Source: Chitinophaga pinensis (GTDB lineage: Bacteria; Bacteroidota; Bacteroidia; Flavobacteriales_D; Crocinitomicaceae). Taken from it: 64,000 nucleotides of DNA. This document shows, piece by piece, positions 50,966-59,994 of the stretch. Position 1 is the stretch's first letter. Each line of letters begins with the position of its first letter. A program made the position numbers and the translations under genes. Location of the stretch: the NCBI GenBank assembly GCA_945863605.1, contig CAMAZP010000010.1, forward strand, positions 1 to 64,000, read 5' to 3'. The notes beneath the pieces are model-generated. The model saw nothing but the letters and a program-made list of their open reading frames with translations, searched no databases and was not told the origin of the DNA.

Positions 50966-52153
50966 ATGATCCGAAGAAATCAGTTAGAAATAGTAAAATC
51001 AAGGATGAATGAGACGAGAAAATTCATTCAAGTTTTGATGGGCCCTCATCAAGTTGGTAAAACAACAATGATGAAACAACTAACGGAAGAAGTACTAATT
51101 GATACTATTTCTGTTTCTGCTGATGGGGTAATCAATTCGAATTGGTTATGGATTCAACAAATTTGGGAAAATGCACGCATTCAATTAAAAAACTCAACAA
51201 AAAATGAATTAATTCTAATAATTGATGAAATTCAAAAATTGGATAATTGGAGTGAAATCGTTAAAGAACAATGGGATTTTGACACCAAAGAAAATAACAA
51301 CATCAAAGTAATTTTACTTGGCTCTTCGCGCTTGATGATTCAGAAAGGTCTTACTGAATCGCTTGCAGGAAGATTTGAAGTAACGTATGTTGGACATTGG
51401 TCTTTTACAGAAATGGAAGAAGCTTTTGGTTGGAGTGTAAATCAATACATTTATTACGGAGCGTACCCAGGAGCAGCAAGTTTAATTCACGAAGAAGAAC
51501 GATGGAAAAATTATATTAAAGATTCCTTAATAGAAACGAGTATTTCAAAGGATATTTTGATGTTGACGCGCGTTGATAAACCAGCAGTTTTGAAACGTTT
51601 GTTTGAATTAGGTTGTCTGTATTCAGGTCAAATTCTAGCCTACACAAAACTTTTAGGCGAGTTGCAAGATGCAGGTAACACAACTACTTTATCTCATTAT
51701 TTAACCTTGCTTTCAGATTCAGGCTTGTTAGGTGCAACTGAAAAATATGCAGGAAATGTCATTCGAAAACGTGCTTCGAAACCAAAATTTCAAGTTTTTA
51801 ATAGTGCTTTACTAACTGCGCAGGATGATTTAACATATGAAAAAGCACTATCGCATTCTAAGATTTGGGGGAGATTAGCAGAGTCTGCAATTGGCGCACA
51901 TCTCATAAACAACGCTATTACTAATAATTACACTGTGTATTATTGGCGCGAAAAAAATGACGAAGTTGACTTTATACTCGAGCGAAAAAATACCTTAATA
52001 GCGCTTGAAGTGAAAACTGGAAGACGAGCTGAAAATAACGGAATGCGCGTCTTTGCACAAACGTTTAAGCCGAAAAAAGTTTTGCTAATAGGAACAGGTG
52101 GAATTGGAATTGAAACTTTTCTAAGAATGAATCCTGGAGTTTTATTTAATTGA
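50966..52153 (+). CDS. AAA_14/DUF4143 ATPase with nuclease-like C-terminus
   Basis: 395 residues. Walker A GPHQVGKT (26-33), Walker B ELILIIDEIQKL (D87-E88), sensor-like KVILLGSSRLMI, and YYGAYPGAASLI at the DUF4143 junction. The C-terminal domain contains REKNDEVDFILERKNTLIALEVKTG: D335 and E348-x-K350 fit a PD-(D/E)xK-type fold (E308 may contribute). DUF4143 proteins are common, poorly understood NTPases, some of archaeal ATPase type. Single gene with its own operator array; neighbours on both sides are on the opposite strand. No DNA-binding regulator is encoded next to it. Confidence 0.88.
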   Translation: MIRRNQLEIVKSRMNETRKFIQVLMGPHQVGKTTMMKQLTEEVLIDTISVSADGVINSNWLWIQQIWENARIQLKNSTKNELILIIDEIQKLDNWSEIVKEQWDFDTKENNNIKVILLGSSRLMIQKGLTESLAGRFEVTYVGHWSFTEMEEAFGWSVNQYIYYGAYPGAASLIHEEERWKNYIKDSLIETSISKDILMLTRVDKPAVLKRLFELGCLYSGQILAYTKLLGELQDAGNTTTLSHYLTLLSDSGLLGATEKYAGNVIRKRASKPKFQVFNSALLTAQDDLTYEKALSHSKIWGRLAESAIGAHLINNAITNNYTVYYWREKNDEVDFILERKNTLIALEVKTGRRAENNGMRVFAQTFKPKKVLLIGTGGIGIETFLRMNPGVLFN

Positions 52154-52176: not shown

Positions 52177-53562
52177 TTAAATCAACCTCGCCAAAGCAAA
52201 TTTCAAAGCGATTGCCGATTGTTGGTTTTTGGTTAGTAATTCAATGTATTTCAGCTGAGATTGAATGTAAGCCATTTCGCGAACATTAATCAAGAACAAC
52301 GAACTTTCTCCATTTTCAAACATACGTTTTTCAGCATCCAATAAGGTTCGATTATCTTCAACAGTTTGCTTGTAAATAATCAGCTGCTCACTCATATTTT
52401 CTAAATCAACTAAGGAACTTTGAATTTTAAAATTCAAGGATGCAAAAGTATTATCCAATTGATATTCTGCCGATTGAATTTTCAATTCTGCCAATTGTAA
52501 ATCACCGCGCTCTTTTCTCAAAAACAAAGGCATTTCAAAAGTCAATCCCCACTTGTAATTATTAATTGACAGTCCATCCAAAGGATTAAAATTGACTGGT
52601 TCATTCAAAAAGTTATATTGCAAGTTCAATTGTGGTTTTAATTGTTCTCTTTTGAGTCTTTTTTCAACTTCTAAAGTTTCTATTTTGAAATTAGCAATTT
52701 GCAAATACGGATGACTTTTAATAATTGAATCATTTACCAAAGTTTGATAATCAGCTGCATTTTGAATAACAATATCCGCTTTTGGAAGCGGAATTGTTAC
52801 TTCTTCCAATTCAAGTGGTTCGTCACTTTCTGTCCATAAAAAAGTGGAAAGTTTAAGTTTTGCATTTTGTAATTCTGCTTCAAATTGTTGCAACAAAACC
52901 GCTCTTGTTTGTACTTGAATTCTTGCTTCAATGCTATCAATTCCCGGTCGATCACCAAGGTCAACGGTTCTTTTGATTGCATCGAAACGTACTTCTGCTA
53001 AGGATAATGCTTCTTGCAAAATTAAACTTGAATGATAAGCTAAAAACCAATTCCAATAAGAATATCCAGATTCATAAAACAATTCGTTCAACTGTAATTT
53101 TTGTTCAGCAAGTGTACTTTTTTGAAAAATTCTAGCTTTGAATAATTCTGCTCTTCGTTGATCGATAAACATCCCTTGACCAAGGTTGACCGCCACACCT
53201 CCATACCACAATCCACTGTTTGGAGTTTTGTTTTGTAAGTCCAAATAAGTTCCACGGTTGTTTTCTATCCCTGATTTTAATTCCACACCATACCAAGTTG
53301 GCAACTTCAAACCAGAATTAATCATACTGTAGTACTGCGAACCTTTAAAATACTTTTGGTCCGTTTGATTATACACTTTTGGATCAAAACTACCTTTTGC
53401 TTTCAACAAATAGCTCTCCCCTACTTCAGGTTGTAAATTAGCTTGTTTTGCTAATGGATGATTGCGCAAAACCATCTCTTGAAATCCTTGCTCGGAAAAA
53501 ATCACCTGGCATGAAAACGAAAGACAAATACCTAAAAATAAAACACTTAATATTGATTTCAT
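52177..53562 (-). CDS. TolC-family outer membrane efflux protein
   Basis: 461 residues. Signal peptide ending near FSCQ, then the OEP fold: long helical hairpins with LLKAKGSFDPKVYNQTDQKYF and an ELKSGIENNRGTYL strand region, and repeated AELFKARIFQKSTLAEQKLQL heptads. Forms the outer-membrane channel for the HlyD/ABC proteins encoded immediately upstream; its ATG overlaps the HlyD stop (ATGA, 4 bases). Last gene of the tetR-abc-hlyD-tolC operon. Confidence 0.9.
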   Translation of the reverse strand: MKSILSVLFLGICLSFSCQVIFSEQGFQEMVLRNHPLAKQANLQPEVGESYLLKAKGSFDPKVYNQTDQKYFKGSQYYSMINSGLKLPTWYGVELKSGIENNRGTYLDLQNKTPNSGLWYGGVAVNLGQGMFIDQRRAELFKARIFQKSTLAEQKLQLNELFYESGYSYWNWFLAYHSSLILQEALSLAEVRFDAIKRTVDLGDRPGIDSIEARIQVQTRAVLLQQFEAELQNAKLKLSTFLWTESDEPLELEEVTIPLPKADIVIQNAADYQTLVNDSIIKSHPYLQIANFKIETLEVEKRLKREQLKPQLNLQYNFLNEPVNFNPLDGLSINNYKWGLTFEMPLFLRKERGDLQLAELKIQSAEYQLDNTFASLNFKIQSSLVDLENMSEQLIIYKQTVEDNRTLLDAEKRMFENGESSLFLINVREMAYIQSQLKYIELLTKNQQSAIALKFALARLI

Positions 53563-54908
53563 TTTTTATCCTTGTTAGCTTTAACATCAGACTTCTTGTA
53601 GAAATCCGGTGGGAAACCATTAATAATTCGCCAGAGTTCATACCAAACTGGAACATCTTTCAATAAAATCATAGAATTCGTACCTCCACCTACTCGCAGT
53701 GCTTTAGGCCATGAATAATCAGATGTATCTGGGGAAATTAAAACTCGAAACGTTCCATCTTCTTGTGCAAAATTATCAACAGCAAATACTTCTCCACCAT
53801 AGGTTCCGTGGCTTGTATTAGGCCAACCTGAGAAAACTATTGCAGGCCATCCGTCAAATTGAATTCTAACTTTTTGTCCTTTATGAATAAGTGGTAAATC
53901 CATTGGTAGTATATACATTTCTATTGCTAAATCATAGACTCTCGGCATAATTGTTAACACTTCTTCACCCTGCTTTACCGTTTCTCCAATTCCACTTTGA
54001 ATGACTTTGGTGACCACACCATCTTGAGGTGCAGTAATTACGTACATACCATTTCGTATCGAATAGTTAGCAGATTGAGTTTGGAGTTTAGTAACATCAA
54101 CCTCCGTTTCAAACATACTTGTCATTGCTGAAAATTTATCCGATTCAGCTTTTGAAATCTCGTCACGATATTTCGCTTCGATGGATGATAATTCAACTTT
54201 GGCATCAATTATATCGTTTCGTGATTGCAATAACTTTTGTTGTGCGCTTATCATACTGCCTTGTGCACGTTGCATTGAAACTTTGCGAATCTCTAAGTCT
54301 GTTTGCGATTTAAGGCCTTCTTTGGTTAACTTTTCGAAACGGTCAAACTGATCTTTTGCGATGTCATAATTATTTCTAGCAACTTGATAATCAATACTAT
54401 CGATTATTAATTTCAAACGCGTTTGCTTCAATTTAATTTGAGCTTGTTGTAATTTCAACTTTCCAGATTCAATCAATGCATCAATTCGATTATCCAGTGA
54501 AACAACTTTATCACCATATGTCTTCACAGATTGTTCTTTCACGCGAATTTGGTCTTTCGTTCGTTCTACTAATTGAGGATCGAAATACCCATCTTTCACC
54601 TCTGAAATGAAGAGCAAGGTATCTCCTTTTTTAACGATATCTCCATCTTTAACATACCACTTCTCAATTCTACCAGCGATGATTGTATTGATTGTTTGTG
54701 GGCGTTGCTCTGGACGAAGCGTAATTAGCTTGCCGTTTGAACGAACATTTTGCGTCCAAGGAATAAACATAAAGACAACTGCAAGAAAGAAAAACACATA
54801 AAAAACGCGAATAATTTTTTTTGATGATTTTTCTTTGATTACTGATTTCAAAGCCCAAAAATCTTCTCTAGGCAATTGATTTTTATTAGTTGGTGATAAA
54901 TTTAACAT
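53559..54908 (-). CDS. HlyD-family membrane fusion protein
   Basis: 449 residues. Short cytoplasmic N-terminus, one transmembrane helix (about 33-52), then a biotinyl-lipoyl half (NTIIAGRIEKWYVKDGDIVKKGDTLLF), a long alpha-helical hairpin (about 105-260), the second lipoyl half (APQDGVVTKVIQSGIGETVKQGEEVL) and a beta-barrel. Periplasmic adaptor connecting an inner-membrane exporter with TolC. Three bases after the ABC gene and 4-base overlap with tolC. Confidence 0.92.
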   Translation of the reverse strand: MLNLSPTNKNQLPREDFWALKSVIKEKSSKKIIRVFYVFFFLAVVFMFIPWTQNVRSNGKLITLRPEQRPQTINTIIAGRIEKWYVKDGDIVKKGDTLLFISEVKDGYFDPQLVERTKDQIRVKEQSVKTYGDKVVSLDNRIDALIESGKLKLQQAQIKLKQTRLKLIIDSIDYQVARNNYDIAKDQFDRFEKLTKEGLKSQTDLEIRKVSMQRAQGSMISAQQKLLQSRNDIIDAKVELSSIEAKYRDEISKAESDKFSAMTSMFETEVDVTKLQTQSANYSIRNGMYVITAPQDGVVTKVIQSGIGETVKQGEEVLTIMPRVYDLAIEMYILPMDLPLIHKGQKVRIQFDGWPAIVFSGWPNTSHGTYGGEVFAVDNFAQEDGTFRVLISPDTSDYSWPKALRVGGGTNSMILLKDVPVWYELWRIINGFPPDFYKKSDVKANKDKK

Positions 54909-54911
54909 CGA

Positions 54912-56603
54912 CTATTTTTTTGCTTTATAAGATTGATAAGTACCTTCAAAAATCACTTTCCCTTTTTCGATTTCAACAATTTTGTCAGCAAATTCCAGCA
55001 TTTGAATATCCTCAGATGAATATAAAACCGATACGTTTTGTTGGGTGGAAATTAACTCTTTAAGTTGATTTCTTTGTACATCATTTAATCCTTCTGATGG
55101 ATCTTCCAACAACACAAGTTTTGGATTACCGACAAAAGCTCTTAGCAATAGAATTTTTCTCACGATATCTTTTGGAACAAAATGAGCTTCTGGATTCAAA
55201 ACAGTATTGTATCCCTCCGAAAAATTATTAATTGCTTCCGATAGATTTAGGATTTTGGCTATTCTTTGGACCTCCTCAAAAGTTGCATATTTTCTTCCTA
55301 GCGTGATATTGTCCAATATAGTAGCATGAAACAAACGATCTTGAAAAAGTAAGTTACCAATTTCATTTCTTAGATTTTGAATGTTTAGATTTCCAATTGG
55401 TAATCCTTCAACTGAAATATTACCAGTGCTAACTGGATACATTCCTCCTATTAAACAAAATAGTGTATTGATACTTACTGTTGAATCTGAGATTATACAA
55501 ACACGTTGATTTGTGTTTACTTCGATTGTGATTTCCTTCAAAATTGGATTTCTGTACAAATCTGTGTGATAAGATACCTTATCAATAATTAGCTCAAATC
55601 CACCCTCTCTTTGTGGTATCTTAATTCCATCATAATTTTCTAATTCTATGTCAGTAACTTGACCAATCTTCTCAACAGCAGTCATTACGTCATATACTAC
55701 TTCCAGCGACATAATTAACTTTTCTACTGAGTTTAAAACCAATAATATGATAATTTCAGCAGCGATAAATTGACCAATATTCATATTTTGATTCAATACC
55801 AAAAACCCACCTATAATCAATAATGCTAAAGCAATAAGTACCTTGAATGCAATCAAAAATGTAAATTGTTGTACCAAAACTCTGAAATGTAAATTTCTTG
55901 CTGTCAAATAGCCATTTAAGTGCTCATCTGTTTTGGTTAGGGATAATTCGGGATTTCCAGCCATTTTAAAACTAAATCTGGCATGAGCAATTTCTTCCAG
56001 CCAATGAGCAATCTTGTACTTGTATTTTGATTCATTCAAGCTTGATTCAAAACCTTTCTTTGAAGTGATTTTCAATATTAATGCTAGTAAAAAAACCAAA
56101 GTCAATCCAAAAAATATGAAAAAACTGTTATAAAAAGAAAGAAGAACCAAACCAAATATAATTTGCAAACTTGCAGCTGTAAAATCAATCAATAATTTAG
56201 ACAAACCTTTCTGTATGGTTAGTGTATCAAAAAAGCGATTTGTTAATTCAGGTGCATATTTTTTTATCAATTCATCCATTTTAATTTTAGGGATACGATC
56301 TGCAAATTCAAATGCTGACTTAACGAAAATTCGTTGCTGTAAGTTTTCGGTGATACGCATTTGAGCGATTGTCAATACACCAGAGAATCCTATAGCTAAA
56401 ACGACTAAAAAAACCAACACAATCCAAGAAGTACTAACCTGACCTATCTGAATAAAATTTATAATTGCCTGAATACCAAGAGGTAATGCTAATGATAGAA
56501 TTCCACTTAGTACAGCAAAAATATAAACGTTACGGATTTCAATACTATCAGGTTTTAGTAAAAGCCAAAAACGATTTAAAGGTGAAATATTACTTTGCTC
56601 CAT
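54912..56603 (-). CDS. ABC exporter subunit with degenerate nucleotide-binding domain
   Basis: 563 residues, full exporter length. N-terminal ABC_membrane-like region with about six transmembrane helices (about 22-290), then a C-terminal domain aligned to an NBD (about 335-563). Motifs are lost: the Walker A position reads ISDSTVSINTL (371-381, no GK[ST]); the signature LSGGQ is FVPKD (475-479); Walker B/catalytic Glu reads VLLED (497-501), D-E inverted; the switch His of the H-loop is Ser (529/530). The Q-loop Gln (421) and QDRLFHATILDNITLG are kept. No peptidase domain. It cannot be an ordinary ATP-driven pump; may be a scaffold or need another ATPase. Overlaps tetR by 14 bases. Confidence 0.88.
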   Translation of the reverse strand: MEQSNISPLNRFWLLLKPDSIEIRNVYIFAVLSGILSLALPLGIQAIINFIQIGQVSTSWIVLVFLVVLAIGFSGVLTIAQMRITENLQQRIFVKSAFEFADRIPKIKMDELIKKYAPELTNRFFDTLTIQKGLSKLLIDFTAASLQIIFGLVLLSFYNSFFIFFGLTLVFLLALILKITSKKGFESSLNESKYKYKIAHWLEEIAHARFSFKMAGNPELSLTKTDEHLNGYLTARNLHFRVLVQQFTFLIAFKVLIALALLIIGGFLVLNQNMNIGQFIAAEIIILLVLNSVEKLIMSLEVVYDVMTAVEKIGQVTDIELENYDGIKIPQREGGFELIIDKVSYHTDLYRNPILKEITIEVNTNQRVCIISDSTVSINTLFCLIGGMYPVSTGNISVEGLPIGNLNIQNLRNEIGNLLFQDRLFHATILDNITLGRKYATFEEVQRIAKILNLSEAINNFSEGYNTVLNPEAHFVPKDIVRKILLLRAFVGNPKLVLLEDPSEGLNDVQRNQLKELISTQQNVSVLYSSEDIQMLEFADKIVEIEKGKVIFEGTYQSYKAKK

Positions 56604-57279
56604 CTATTTGTAGTGTTTTGTTTATAATGTCCAATGCAAAATGCTCAAAAGCATCCTCATTTGAAAAAGTATTTGTTAATCTAGGTAAATGATCTTTAAA
56701 AAAACGTTGATTATTACTACTTTCAATAATTGTAGAAATCAACATTGCTGGATATGGGTACTTAGGATTTATTTCTTCAATTAATTCGACTATTCGGGCA
56801 ACAATTGACTTATAAAGACTATAAACACCATCTTTATTTTCTTTATCTACAGTTTTTGTCCTGTAAACTTTAGCTGACTCATTGATAACAAGGCTCTTCA
56901 AACTTAACTCCCATTGAAAAACAAGTTCGTTTTCGGGGTTTGGTACTGAAGTAATCACGTGTAGCGATTTATAAAGTTTCCGAATTGGGTCCTCAATATT
57001 TGCCGTTTCTATAAGTAAACGATATTCAATCATTCCCCAATACCAATTTATTAAATATAGTAAAAACAAATGCTTGCATTCAAAATACCTGTAAATAGAC
57101 GCCTCTGTTGTTTCAATTCGGTTGGCTAACTTTTTGAAGGTAAAGTTTTCAAAACCAACTTCTTCCAACAATGTGATACCTTCATTTATAATCTTCATAC
57201 CAAGATTTGAACTTGTTGGGTTTTTTAAAAACAACAAATTATTGACTTTAATGCTAGCTGTTGAAAACAATTCCTTCAT
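56590..57279 (-). CDS. TetR/AcrR-family regulator of the export operon
   Basis: 229 residues. The N-terminal ~27 residues are unusual, then the HTH (about 28-75): IINEGITLLEEVGFENFTFKKLANRIETTEASIYRYFECK. The ligand domain is helical and unrecognised. Encoded first in the tetR-abc-hlyD-tolC operon with a promoter and palindrome directly upstream, so autoregulation is likely. Its 3' end overlaps the ABC start. Confidence 0.88.
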   Translation of the reverse strand: MKELFSTASIKVNNLLFLKNPTSSNLGMKIINEGITLLEEVGFENFTFKKLANRIETTEASIYRYFECKHLFLLYLINWYWGMIEYRLLIETANIEDPIRKLYKSLHVITSVPNPENELVFQWELSLKSLVINESAKVYRTKTVDKENKDGVYSLYKSIVARIVELIEEINPKYPYPAMLISTIIESSNNQRFFKDHLPRLTNTFSNEDAFEHFALDIINKTLQIDGAK

Positions 57280-57801: not shown

Positions 57802-59352
57802 ATGGTTCATTTTAAAACATGGCAAAAGGATTTGCCAGCAGGTTTAGTTGTATTTTTGGTTGCCTTACCATTGTGTTTAGGAGTTGGTTTGGCATCTACA
57901 TCAGTCGAAGGAATAGACGGTTTACCCAATTTATTTTCAGGTTTAGTCGCTGGAATTGTTGGTGGAATTGTTGTTGGCTTTCTTAGTGGTTCAAGACTTG
58001 GAGTTTCTGGACCAGCTGCAGGACTTATCACAATAATTGTTGCAGCAATATCAACATTAGGAAGCTACGAAGCTTTTTTAGTGGCTGTAGTAATTTCTGG
58101 CATTTTTCAAGTAATTGCGGGTTTTCTGAAAGCAGGAATTATCGCTAATTACGTTCCATCTTCTGTAATTAAAGGAATGCTTGCAGCCATTGGTATCACT
58201 TTAATATTAAAAGAAATACCACATTTAGTTGGCTATGACAAAGATTTCTTTGGGGATGAATCGTTTTTCCAAAAGGATGGACACAATACTTTTTCAGAAA
58301 TTTATTATTCACTTCAAGCTTTGCATCCTGGTGCAATAATCATTGGTGTTGTTTCACTTTTAATTCTCATGCTATTCGATACAAAATGGTTGAAGAAAAA
58401 TAAAGTCCTATCTGTTATTCCAGGCGCTTTAATTGTTGTTGTAGTGTCTATTTTAATGAATAATCTGTTTGGAACAATTGATAAAAATCTAAAAGTTTCA
58501 AGCATTCATTTAGTTCAATTACCTGTTCCTAAATCTTTAACTGATTTTATTGGGTTTTTCTCGTTTCCAGATTTTTCAATGCTAAGTAATCCAAATGTTT
58601 ATATTGTTGCCATCACGATTGCTTTGGTTGGAAGTTTAGAAACTTTACTTTCAGTTGAAGCAACTGATAAATTAGATCCTCAAAAATTTTCAACGCCAAC
58701 TAATCAAGAATTAAAAGCACAAGGAGTTGGAAATATCGTAAGTGGGCTCTTAGGTGGATTACCGATAACTCAAGTAATTGTTCGAAGTTCTGCAAACATC
58801 AACTCAGGAGGACAATCCAAACTCTCAACTATTGTTCACGGATTTTTGATCTTAATCGCAATCGTTTTCATTCCGCAATTACTCAATATGATTCCTTTGG
58901 CGGCTTTAGCGGCGGTTTTGATTATGGTGGGTTATAAATTGGCTAAAGTTTCGCTTTTCACTTCTATGTATAAATTAGGTTGGGAACAGTTTATACCTTT
59001 TGCTATTACGATTATTGGAGTGCTTTTAACGGATTTACTGAAGGGAATTGCAATTGGTTTGGCAATATCTATTTTCTACATTCTAAAAAAGAACTACAAA
59101 AATAATTTCAAAAAAGAGATTGCTGAAAACGAAATCAAAGTAATACTTTCTGAAGAAGTGACCTTTTTAAACAAAGCTGGAATCATCGAGATTTTAGAAA
59201 CAATTCCCAAAAATTCCAAACTAATAATTGATGGTAGCAATTGTAAATCAATTGACTATGACGTAATTGAACTTCTAAGTGAATTTCAAGTTTATGGTTC
59301 AAAAAACAAAAACATACAATTACAGATGATAAATATTAACTTTAATAACTGA
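57802..59352 (+). CDS. SulP-family anion transporter (probable bicarbonate)
   Basis: 516 residues. About 12-14 transmembrane helices with the SulP start DLPAGLVVFLVALPLCLGVGLAS, GSRLGVSGPAAGL, and RSSANINSGGQSKLSTI; C-terminal part (about 440-516) is a short STAS domain (LIIDGSNCKSIDYDVIELL). SulP proteins move sulfate, bicarbonate or other anions. The carbonic anhydrase encoded 6 bases downstream makes Na+-dependent bicarbonate uptake the likely job. Start is an ATG well spaced from the previous gene. Confidence 0.92.
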   Translation: MVHFKTWQKDLPAGLVVFLVALPLCLGVGLASTSVEGIDGLPNLFSGLVAGIVGGIVVGFLSGSRLGVSGPAAGLITIIVAAISTLGSYEAFLVAVVISGIFQVIAGFLKAGIIANYVPSSVIKGMLAAIGITLILKEIPHLVGYDKDFFGDESFFQKDGHNTFSEIYYSLQALHPGAIIIGVVSLLILMLFDTKWLKKNKVLSVIPGALIVVVVSILMNNLFGTIDKNLKVSSIHLVQLPVPKSLTDFIGFFSFPDFSMLSNPNVYIVAITIALVGSLETLLSVEATDKLDPQKFSTPTNQELKAQGVGNIVSGLLGGLPITQVIVRSSANINSGGQSKLSTIVHGFLILIAIVFIPQLLNMIPLAALAAVLIMVGYKLAKVSLFTSMYKLGWEQFIPFAITIIGVLLTDLLKGIAIGLAISIFYILKKNYKNNFKKEIAENEIKVILSEEVTFLNKAGIIEILETIPKNSKLIIDGSNCKSIDYDVIELLSEFQVYGSKNKNIQLQMININFNN

Positions 59353-59358
59353 AAAAAT

Positions 59359-59994
59359 ATGGAAGCTTTTTATAATAAATTACTAGAAAACAATAAAGAA
59401 TGGGTGGCAAGTAAAATCAAGCAAGACCCTGACTATTTTAATCGCCTTGCAAATGGACAAAAACCTCCTGTTTTATGGATTGGCTGCTCTGATAGTCGAG
59501 TTCCTGCAAATGAAATAATTGGGGCAGAACCAGGTGAAGTATTTGTTCACAGAAACATTGCAAATATGGTGGTACATTCAGATATGAATTTATTGTCAGT
59601 TCTAGATTACGCAGTGAATGTATTGCAAGTGAAACACATCATCGTTTGTGGTCATTATGGCTGTGGTGGGGTTCAAACTGCAATGACTAACAAACACGTT
59701 GGGATTATTGACAACTGGATTCGTCATATCAAAGACGTATATCGTTTTCACCAAAAAGAGCTGAATGAAATCGAAGATGAAAAAGCAAGATTCAATCGAT
59801 TTGTAGAATTAAACGTAGTTGAACAAGTACTAGATTTAGCGAAAACTTCTATCGTTCAGGGCGCTTGGGAAAGTGGTCAAGATTTACATGTTCACGGTTG
59901 GGTTTACGATGTAAAAGACGGTTTAATCAACGACTTAAAAATAACAATTAAAGACAACAAAAACCTTTCAGACGTTTATCAGTTGGATTTGTAG
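59359..59994 (+). CDS. Beta-class carbonic anhydrase
   Basis: 211 residues. Zinc ligands and catalytic dyad are intact: Cys43-x-Asp45-x-Arg47 in GCSDSRVPANEI, HRNIANM, His99 and Cys102 in VCGHYGCGG. Interconverts CO2 and HCO3-. Immediately follows the SulP transporter, together forming a known bicarbonate-uptake pairing. Confidence 0.95.
   Translation: MEAFYNKLLENNKEWVASKIKQDPDYFNRLANGQKPPVLWIGCSDSRVPANEIIGAEPGEVFVHRNIANMVVHSDMNLLSVLDYAVNVLQVKHIIVCGHYGCGGVQTAMTNKHVGIIDNWIRHIKDVYRFHQKELNEIEDEKARFNRFVELNVVEQVLDLAKTSIVQGAWESGQDLHVHGWVYDVKDGLINDLKITIKDNKNLSDVYQLDL

Follow-up and report, generated by a model that had tools for sequence, protein, structure and literature searches.

An ABC-type tripartite exporter of Bacteroidota whose nucleotide-binding domain is eroded and, in one clade, absent

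Organization of the operon

The window, by which we mean the whole 64,000-nucleotide stretch of DNA analysed, carries on the minus strand four genes that overlap or sit 3 nt apart. Their order and the extent of the operon (52177–57279) are as originally predicted.

56590–57279, minus strand: TetR-family regulator, first gene of the operon, overlapping the ABC gene by 14 nt
54912–56603, minus strand: ABC half-exporter, 563 aa, with a nucleotide-binding domain (NBD) that has no catalytic motifs
53559–54908, minus strand: HlyD-type membrane fusion protein, 449 aa
52177–53562, minus strand: TolC-type outer membrane factor, 461 aa
57290–57330: A+T-rich imperfect inverted repeat 5' of tetR, arms 75% complementary; a weak candidate operator
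57802–59994, plus strand: SulP transporter and beta-carbonic anhydrase genes, divergent, outside the operon

Pfam models match the operon proteins as OEP (97.1 bits), HlyD_3 (52.6 bits), ABC_membrane (37.9 bits) and TetR_N (30.6 bits). ABC_tran scores 19.8 bits on the ABC protein, under the cut-off of 25, and no Pfam peptidase domain is found in it. The ABC, HlyD and TolC genes stand side by side, as a type I secretion system requires, and the gene set and the fold are shared with type I secretion (HlyB-HlyD-TolC) and with the PCAT/NHLM exporters. The best family models are TIGR03375 and TIGR01842. However, the catalytic motifs present in type I secretion are missing from the window ABC protein, and the scores stay far below the type I subfamily cut-offs (138.6 of 693.1 bits for the permease model TIGR03375, 92.2 of 208.65 for the HlyD model TIGR01843). 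The neighbourhoods of the relatives offer no candidate for a conserved substrate gene.

The ABC protein had been described as the only ABC subunit, which holds for the operon, and no second half-exporter is present among the frames near it. Outside the operon the same genome has 13 other ABC matches, including five frames of half-exporter length (L002–L006), which match the window ABC protein with at most 73.4 bits and 25% identity.

The nucleotide-binding domain of the window protein

Motifs of the window protein were called by alignment to these five paralogues.

55629–56603, minus strand: transmembrane domain (TMD), residues 1–325, the conserved part of the family
54915–55601, minus strand: degenerate NBD, residues 335–563, fold retained in the model
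55461–55496, minus strand: Walker A position, residues 370–381, IISDSTVSINTL
55140–55187, minus strand: signature position, residues 473–488, AHFVPKDIVRKILLLR
55083–55124, minus strand: Walker B position, residues 494–507, PKLVLLEDPSEGLN
54996–55034, minus strand: H-loop position, residues 524–536, VSVLYSSEDIQML

At Walker A the protein has SDSTVSINT where the paralogues have GESGSGKST; the P-loop glycines are absent and the Lys column holds Ile. The signature reads VPKDI in place of LSGGQ, Walker B is Glu-Asp instead of Asp-Glu, the D-loop Asp is replaced by Asn and the H-loop His by Glu. Hence, none of Walker A GxxGxGK(S/T), LSGGQ, the Walker B Asp with the catalytic Glu, and the H-loop His is present, and the predicted loss of all four is borne out. 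The Q-loop, in turn, is not clearly intact, as had been claimed: the window Gln lies one residue off register, and Gln occupies that column in 33 of 177 NBD-bearing rows. One of the five paralogues, L003, also lacks S/T-G-G (LSVGQ), and L006 has Asp at the position of the catalytic Glu. Single motif changes are thus not rare in working exporters, and it is the sum of the losses that counts.

The claim of an intact fold agrees with the AlphaFold model, which shows a whole type IV exporter with a six-helix TMD and an ABC NBD fold (TM-score 0.92 over the query to 8voz_A). Structure matches to the model include TmrAB (6rai_B, Z 30.4), HlyB (8dck_B, Z 30.3) and PCAT1 (8voz_A, Z 29.9).

Motif loss and constraint across relatives

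We collected 217 distinct rows, the window included, 177 with the NBD and 40 without it. Selection was by score and by purpose, first the nearest relatives and later NBD-less families, and class counts are therefore not prevalences. A match in the window's own family with a 361-residue frame (G123) was left out of the examined rows. Of ten plasmid records with a match, the five examined, from Persicobacter, Aureibacter, Riemerella and some sphingomonads, are NBD-bearing by length.

The NBD of this family is eroded piecewise. The signature is gone throughout (S/T-G-G in 0 of the 177 NBD-bearing rows), the Walker B Asp and the H-loop His are gone from most rows (retained in 28 and 12, respectively), and the Walker A Lys is gone in several lineages (present in 128, absent in 49). 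The H-loop His is found in four close relatives of the window and the Walker B Asp-Glu in four other close relatives; the Lys-keeping rows are mostly more distant. In a quick tree thinned to 65 rows, in which support is by SH-aLRT only, the outgroup branches are long and the backbone is partly open, the Lys is absent from 9 of 9 rows of the clade holding the window. About five changes at this position lie elsewhere in that tree, besides the NBD-less clade; one of them (L102) is Lys to Arg, and the Walker A of L249 is aligned with an insertion.

The same losses thus recur in Bacteroidota relatives, and the puzzle of a dead NBD beside retained HlyD and TolC partners is real and common to them. 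The original prediction had made simple decay of this one copy the alternative if close relatives kept the Lys and the signature. The absence of the signature everywhere and of the Lys in the window's clade speaks against such decay; the Lys itself is kept in most NBD-bearing rows, largely distant ones.

That distribution also bears on a regulatory reading, in which the NBD would be a gate that responds to ATP but does not hydrolyse it, and the window clade would have lost even that. The Lys survives in these rows despite the other motif losses, so that ATP binding may still matter there. As an account of the family this reading is very unlikely, since the window has neither P-loop glycines nor Lys and one clade has no NBD at all.

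Constraint is inverted relative to canonical exporters, the TMDs being more alike than the NBDs. Median identity of the window is 69 for the TMD and 36 for the NBD against the 48 Lys-less rows, and 56 and 23 against the 128 Lys-keeping rows; in none of 176 comparisons does the NBD exceed the TMD. Among the five same-genome paralogues, by contrast, the medians are 20 for the TMD and 44 for the NBD, with the NBD higher in 10 of 10 pairs. Against three near relatives, nonsynonymous differences per site are 0.037–0.056 in the TMD and 0.157–0.163 in the NBD. The four operon genes are under purifying selection against these relatives where computable; with pS of 0.44–0.80, the dN/dS ratios are rough. 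The window NBD is among the sequences so constrained, which indicates that it does something.

Repetition of the losses in orthologues, together with purifying selection, points to more than chance. Simple local decay of the window copy was therefore rejected, the nearest clade being without the Lys as well. A non-functional remnant in decay would explain the motif losses and why, in the window's own family, 53 of 150 genomes gave no match at E 1e-40. With selection acting and the operon retained across the phylum, we regard it as the least probable of the explanations considered here.

A clade without the nucleotide-binding domain

In the 40 NBD-less rows the frame is 334–424 residues long and consists of the TMD alone. 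They form one clade in the thinned tree (SH-aLRT 99, 7 rows after thinning). With a gene scored as NBD-less by a stop-to-stop frame of at most 424 residues, and counted by hand from lists, it occurs in 18 of 121 genomes in one family and in 32 of 101 in another; six such genes were seen among 392 genomes of the phylum. Assembly error as their source was rejected, as they are also found in the single-contig genomes G397, G578, G625, G727 and G744.

HlyD and TolC matches adjoin the NBD-less gene in 34 of the 34 long loci examined. Relatives that have no NBD and keep the rest of the pump suggest that the pump runs without ATP. The same observation fits a passive or assembly role, in which the TMD dimer would serve as anchor and gate for the HlyD-TolC conduit, or would itself be a gated channel, with no active transport and no need of an energy source. 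We consider this unlikely, though it is the strongest of the rival readings. The clade retains the six helices, the cytosolic extensions and the charges at 61% mean pairwise identity, which would be more than an anchor needs.

Transport by an ABC TMD without its NBD has been reported for laboratory constructs. MsbA-MD and LmrA-MD are reported to transport on ion gradients; export by MsbA-MD is weaker than that by MsbA, and in one assay a current was recorded with LmrA but none with LmrA-MD (PMC4979069, PMC6155054). Those are deletions made in the laboratory, whereas the clade described here is a natural one with the NBD removed in the same way.

A natural parallel is SbmA/BacA (SLiPT). According to PMC13316013, its type IV TMD is believed to have arisen from an ABC transporter by loss of the NBD, SbmA imports peptides driven by protons via conserved glutamates, and coupling helices are lost in SbmA-like proteins. 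On that account the NBD-less relatives of the window differ, since they retain the coupling-helix region; moreover, SbmA/BacA is an inner-membrane importer without an NBD, and the window protein is of exporter type with an inactive one. The SbmA/BacA Pfam family gives no match at E 1 for the window protein or at 0.1 for three NBD-less proteins. No SbmA entry stands among the best 50 rows of each of two structure comparisons, which has no bearing on kinship. Among the literature matches listed (titles and abstract starts), none describes this family.

Conserved charges and coupling helices

Conserved charges of the TMD lie in two long helices.

56130–56255, minus strand: third long helix, TM3, residues 117–158, with N122 R123 F124 F125 D126, Q131 K132, K136 and D140
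55650–55778, minus strand: sixth long helix, TM6, residues 276–318, with E283, E294-K295, D305 and K312

Helix charges, among them K132, E283 and D305, hardly vary in any class: 217 of 217 rows have Lys at 132, 195 and 312 and an acid at 283, and 216 have an acid at 305. At columns 132, 195, 283 and 305 the charge type is not shared by a majority of the five paralogues; 312 is Arg in three of them. Of the TM3 and TM6 charges, only E283, E294 and K295 fall within computed hydrophobic stretches, the others lying in or near cytosolic helix parts. The conserved charges could be structural. In LmrA, E314 sits in TM6 (PMC6155054).

The coupling-helix region is present in the window protein, and altered but present in the NBD-less rows. 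There, residue 213 is basic in 39 of 40, residue 212 is Tyr in 28 and Phe in 4, and the aromatic-basic pair of coupling helix 2 is kept in 32. Loss of its SFK motif in this clade is consequently a weak argument against an ATPase in trans.

Search for a partner ATPase

The original prediction offered three ways out of the puzzle: an NBD acting in trans, a passive platform, or energy from elsewhere. Our results disfavour the first and leave the other two. Another ABC ATPase could act as a canonical half-exporter in a heterodimer, or the TMD-only form could be served by a separate NBD protein, and other ABC NBDs are numerous in each genome. Asymmetric heterodimeric exporters (TM287/288, TmrAB, TAP) combine a degenerate ATP site with one complete site, contributed with a partner subunit. 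The window protein shares their fold; however, neither a complete ATP site nor a partner subunit was found here. In an ATP site one NBD supplies the Walker motifs and its partner the signature, so that pairing the window NBD with a canonical NBD would spoil both sites.

The operon is not accompanied by a second ABC gene in its relatives. Another ABC ATPase frame occurs in 12 of 212 loci of at least 9 kb (1 of 24 NBD-less, 5 of 48 named loci among L100–L152, 5 of 36 own-type loci), and the co-occurring partner that had been proposed as a check did not appear, no half-exporter being shared among the relatives' loci. Seven neighbouring ABC ATPases were scanned: three are ABC-F-like, two have a NIL domain, one has an ABC-2 membrane domain, and one belongs to the NBD-less locus L153. 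This last, a stand-alone 286-aa ATPase encoded some 1.3 kb past tolC in the same orientation, favours an ATPase in trans, as do the cytosolic helix extensions and the aromatic-basic pair kept in the NBD-less clade. Against it, no NBD of this family was found elsewhere in 10 NBD-less genomes by a sister-NBD query (best match per genome): matches reached at most 111.4 bits, each in a frame of 583–633 residues. The query scored 503 bits in its own genome and 217 bits in another genome that carries the NBD. Coupling helix 2 is also less alike among the NBD-less rows (30% within-class identity) than among the deepest rows (41%), although for the TMD as a whole the corresponding values are 61% and 48%. 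An ATPase in trans is hence improbable, more so than a passive role.

Neighbouring SulP, carbonic anhydrase and DabA genes

SulP, carbonic anhydrase or DabA genes lie near 13 of 262 loci (by locus 13 near and 0 far, hand count). The nearness gives p 8e-5 by gene, with SulP-carbonic anhydrase pairs counted twice, and about 0.002 by locus, the near zone having been set after the genes were seen. In some relatives SulP and carbonic anhydrase genes stand directly upstream on the operon's strand, and in several lineages SulP, carbonic anhydrase or DabA genes share the operon.

Proposed mechanism

We suggest that the operon encodes a TetR-controlled tripartite exporter (TMD dimer, HlyD and TolC) that descends from an ABC transporter, has given up ATP hydrolysis and is most likely ion-coupled; we give this reading a probability of roughly 0.57. 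EmrA/EmrB/TolC likewise joins a HlyD-type adaptor and TolC to an ATP-independent inner membrane pump, except that EmrB is an MFS protein and the pump here is an ABC TMD.

Step 1: The TMD itself would move the substrate, coupled most likely to ions (protons) through the conserved charges of TM3 and TM6.

Step 2: The substrate would then be passed from the TMD to HlyD-TolC. The window NBD would stay as a structural or regulatory domain.

A fuller version, in which an ABC exporter became an ATP-independent, ion-coupled tripartite exporter, its ATPase silenced and then deleted in one clade, and its function tied to inorganic carbon or pH, is possible but considerably more tentative.

ABC exporters are defined by ATP hydrolysis. 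If our reading is true, the transmembrane domain of an ABC protein can form the centre of an exporter that spans the envelope and does not depend on such hydrolysis, and the family would add to SbmA another way in which primary transport turned into secondary transport. It offers a natural series that begins with motif loss and ends with the NBD gone altogether, the outer components of the pump staying in place, and the claim made for truncated LmrA and MsbA becomes testable in proteins already cut by evolution.

Window operon and its ABC protein

The four genes are located where the original prediction placed them, and their identities as TetR, ABC half-exporter, HlyD and TolC are borne out.

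52177–57279, minus strand: TetR-ABC-HlyD-TolC operon
54912–56603, minus strand: ABC half-exporter of 563 residues, with the transmembrane domain (TMD) at residues 1–325 and the nucleotide-binding domain (NBD) at 335–563
50966–52153: AAA_14/DUF4143 ATPase gene adjoining the operon; the operons of the close relatives L074 and L088 also have one nearby

Compared with the half-exporters of the same genome, the Walker A Lys, the signature, the Walker B Asp and Glu and the H-loop His are all replaced, as predicted, and so is the D-loop Asp. To call the Q-loop intact was too generous, because its Gln sits one residue out of register. The AlphaFold model (40-row alignment) has a mean pLDDT of 84.7, with most NBD blocks near 90, and structure comparison matches the whole of it to type IV exporters (TmrAB, Z 30.4; HlyB, Z 30.3; PCAT1, Z 29.9), which supports the claim of a kept fold. 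Judged by the model and by the motifs, respectively, the protein appears to have retained the fold and lost the chemistry.

The gene is the sole strong match to itself in its own genome, 13 other places reaching at most 73.4 bits, and the genome search revealed no second copy of the family. All five half-exporter-length paralogues (L002–L006) have the Walker A Lys and the H-loop His. The signature of L003 is LSVGQ; L006 has Asp-Asp at Walker B, the catalytic Glu being replaced by Asp, and resembles degenerate-site subunits in this.

Motif erosion in relatives

Matches to the window protein (E 1e-40) occur in 97 of 150 same-family genomes and in 99 of 392 genomes of the phylum sample. The named-genome scan gave 253 relatives, of which the best 80 were retained, many being Flavobacteriales by title. 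The protein family extends to Alphaproteobacteria, where two homologues on sphingomonad plasmids (L253, L257) have degenerate NBDs too. The alignment comprises 217 distinct rows including the window, 177 of them with an NBD. None of these 177 has S/T-G-G at the signature; the Walker A Lys is retained in 128, the Walker B Asp in 28, a Glu after the Asp position in 44 and the H-loop His in 12. In 100 rows Lys is the only one retained among five scored features, and it is missing throughout the window's clade. Six distant rows (L165, L167, L168, L170–L172; 26–33% identity) have Lys, Asp, Glu and His, with the signature absent. The pattern suggests that the signature was lost first, Walker B and the H-loop next and Walker A last. 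The order is not strict, since among Lys-less rows near the window four retain the His and four others the Asp-Glu (L015, L016, L017, L019 versus L026, L027, L028, L030); none of these has Asp, Glu and His together. The ABC frames of L159, L164 and L168 (737–780 residues) carry an N-terminal extension of about 180 residues ahead of the TMD, without a Pfam match in it.

Members without the NBD

In six of the phylum-sample genomes the frame is 334–360 residues long and ends just past TM6, with HlyD adjoining. In the two family searches, where a frame of 424 residues or less was taken as NBD-less, such frames were counted from their lengths in 18/121 and 32/101 genomes. HlyD and TolC matches are present at all 34 long NBD-less loci. 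The tree on TMD columns was built from 65 rows, of which 60 belong to the family; thinning left 7 NBD-less rows, and these form a single clade (SH-aLRT 99) nested within NBD-bearing rows. Six changes account for the labels Lys, no Lys and no NBD on this tree: one NBD loss and about five Lys changes, one of these to Arg. Genome G705 has three copies of the family, two without the NBD and one with it (L229, L230, L251). The predicted motif loss is confirmed and extends to relatives, including one clade devoid of the NBD.

Constraint on the two domains

In the five paralogues conservation is stronger in the NBD than in the TMD (44% versus 20% identity; NBD higher in 10/10 pairs). For the window protein identity is 36% in the NBD versus 69% in the TMD against 48 Lys-less rows, and 23% versus 56% against 128 Lys-keeping rows, with the NBD above the TMD in 0 of 176 comparisons. 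Pairs among Lys-keeping rows have the higher NBD in 7 of 1,500 sampled; in the eight deepest rows the contrast is weak (41% NBD versus 49% TMD; NBD higher in 8/28 pairs). By these identities the conserved half is reversed, the NBD in the paralogues and the TMD in the family. Between the window and three near relatives nonsynonymous differences per site are 0.037–0.056 in the TMD and 0.157–0.163 in the NBD, both being under purifying selection.

In rows with or without the NBD, near-invariant residues are found in TM3 (N122-D126, Q131-K132, K136, D140) and TM6 (E283, E294-K295, D305, K312). With acids counted together, not one of the five paralogues matches E86, K132, K136, K195, E283, E294, K295 or D305; one or two match D140, E191 and H239, and four match R123, D126 and R236. 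Only E283, E294 and K295 among these charges lie within computed hydrophobic stretches. Mean within-class identity of coupling helix 2 is highest for the deepest rows (41%), followed by the Lys-keeping (39%), Lys-less (36%) and NBD-less rows (30%); over the whole TMD the NBD-less rows are more alike (61% versus 48% in the deepest rows). The helix is altered rather than gone in NBD-less rows, as a basic residue at 213 persists in 39/40 and an aromatic-basic pair in 32/40.

Search for a second ATPase in trans

Each ATP site combines the Walker motifs of one NBD with the signature of its partner NBD; therefore, a homodimer would lack a complete site, and so would a heterodimer formed with a canonical partner. 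The surroundings of the operon show no conserved second ABC gene: a further ABC ATPase frame occurs in 12 of 212 loci of at least 9 kb, and the seven scanned are three ABC-F-like, two NIL-domain, one ABC-2 and one stand-alone ATPase. The last of these (L153:13007–13864, plus strand, 286 aa) follows tolC of an NBD-less operon at a distance of about 1.3 kb and in the same orientation; no such gene was seen in the other 23 NBD-less operons. The search for a sister NBD in 10 NBD-less genomes gave at best 111.4 bits, in exporter-length frames. With no complete ATP site, no conserved second ABC gene and no strong sister-NBD match in the 10 genomes searched, the TMD is likely the working part of the exporter.

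Inorganic carbon genes beside the operon

57802–59994, divergent from the operon: SulP and carbonic anhydrase genes, arranged likewise in L088

The same pair lies directly upstream on the operon strand in L191, L262, L165 and L299 (the anhydrase match of L299 is weak, 27%), and nearby elsewhere in L244, with SulP in L259 and L261 and the anhydrase in L235. DUF2309 genes, which we take to be DabA, are near the operon in L253, L287 and L301. Altogether, such genes stand next to or inside the operon in 13 of 262 distinct loci; the 48 long named loci (L100–L152) are all without one. Carbon-handling genes number 20 in 1,290 kb near the operon versus 0 in 774 kb further off. Since the near zone was set after the fact, we consider inorganic carbon handling a lead only to the operon function.

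Proposed mechanism

We suggest that the TMD likely moves the substrate independently of ATP. We judge ion coupling to be the best single mechanism that would power such transport; the main rival is a passive conduit in place of active transport. There are precedents for transport without an NBD. SbmA is a proton-driven transporter with a TMD proposed to descend from an ABC transporter through loss of the NBD (PMC13316013). Ion gradients are reported to drive transport by truncated MsbA and LmrA, LmrA requiring E314 in TM6 for it, and these truncations perform worse than the whole proteins (PMC4979069, PMC6155054). From its sequences, the family appears to be a tripartite exporter of ABC descent that has no working ATPase and, in one clade, no NBD at all.
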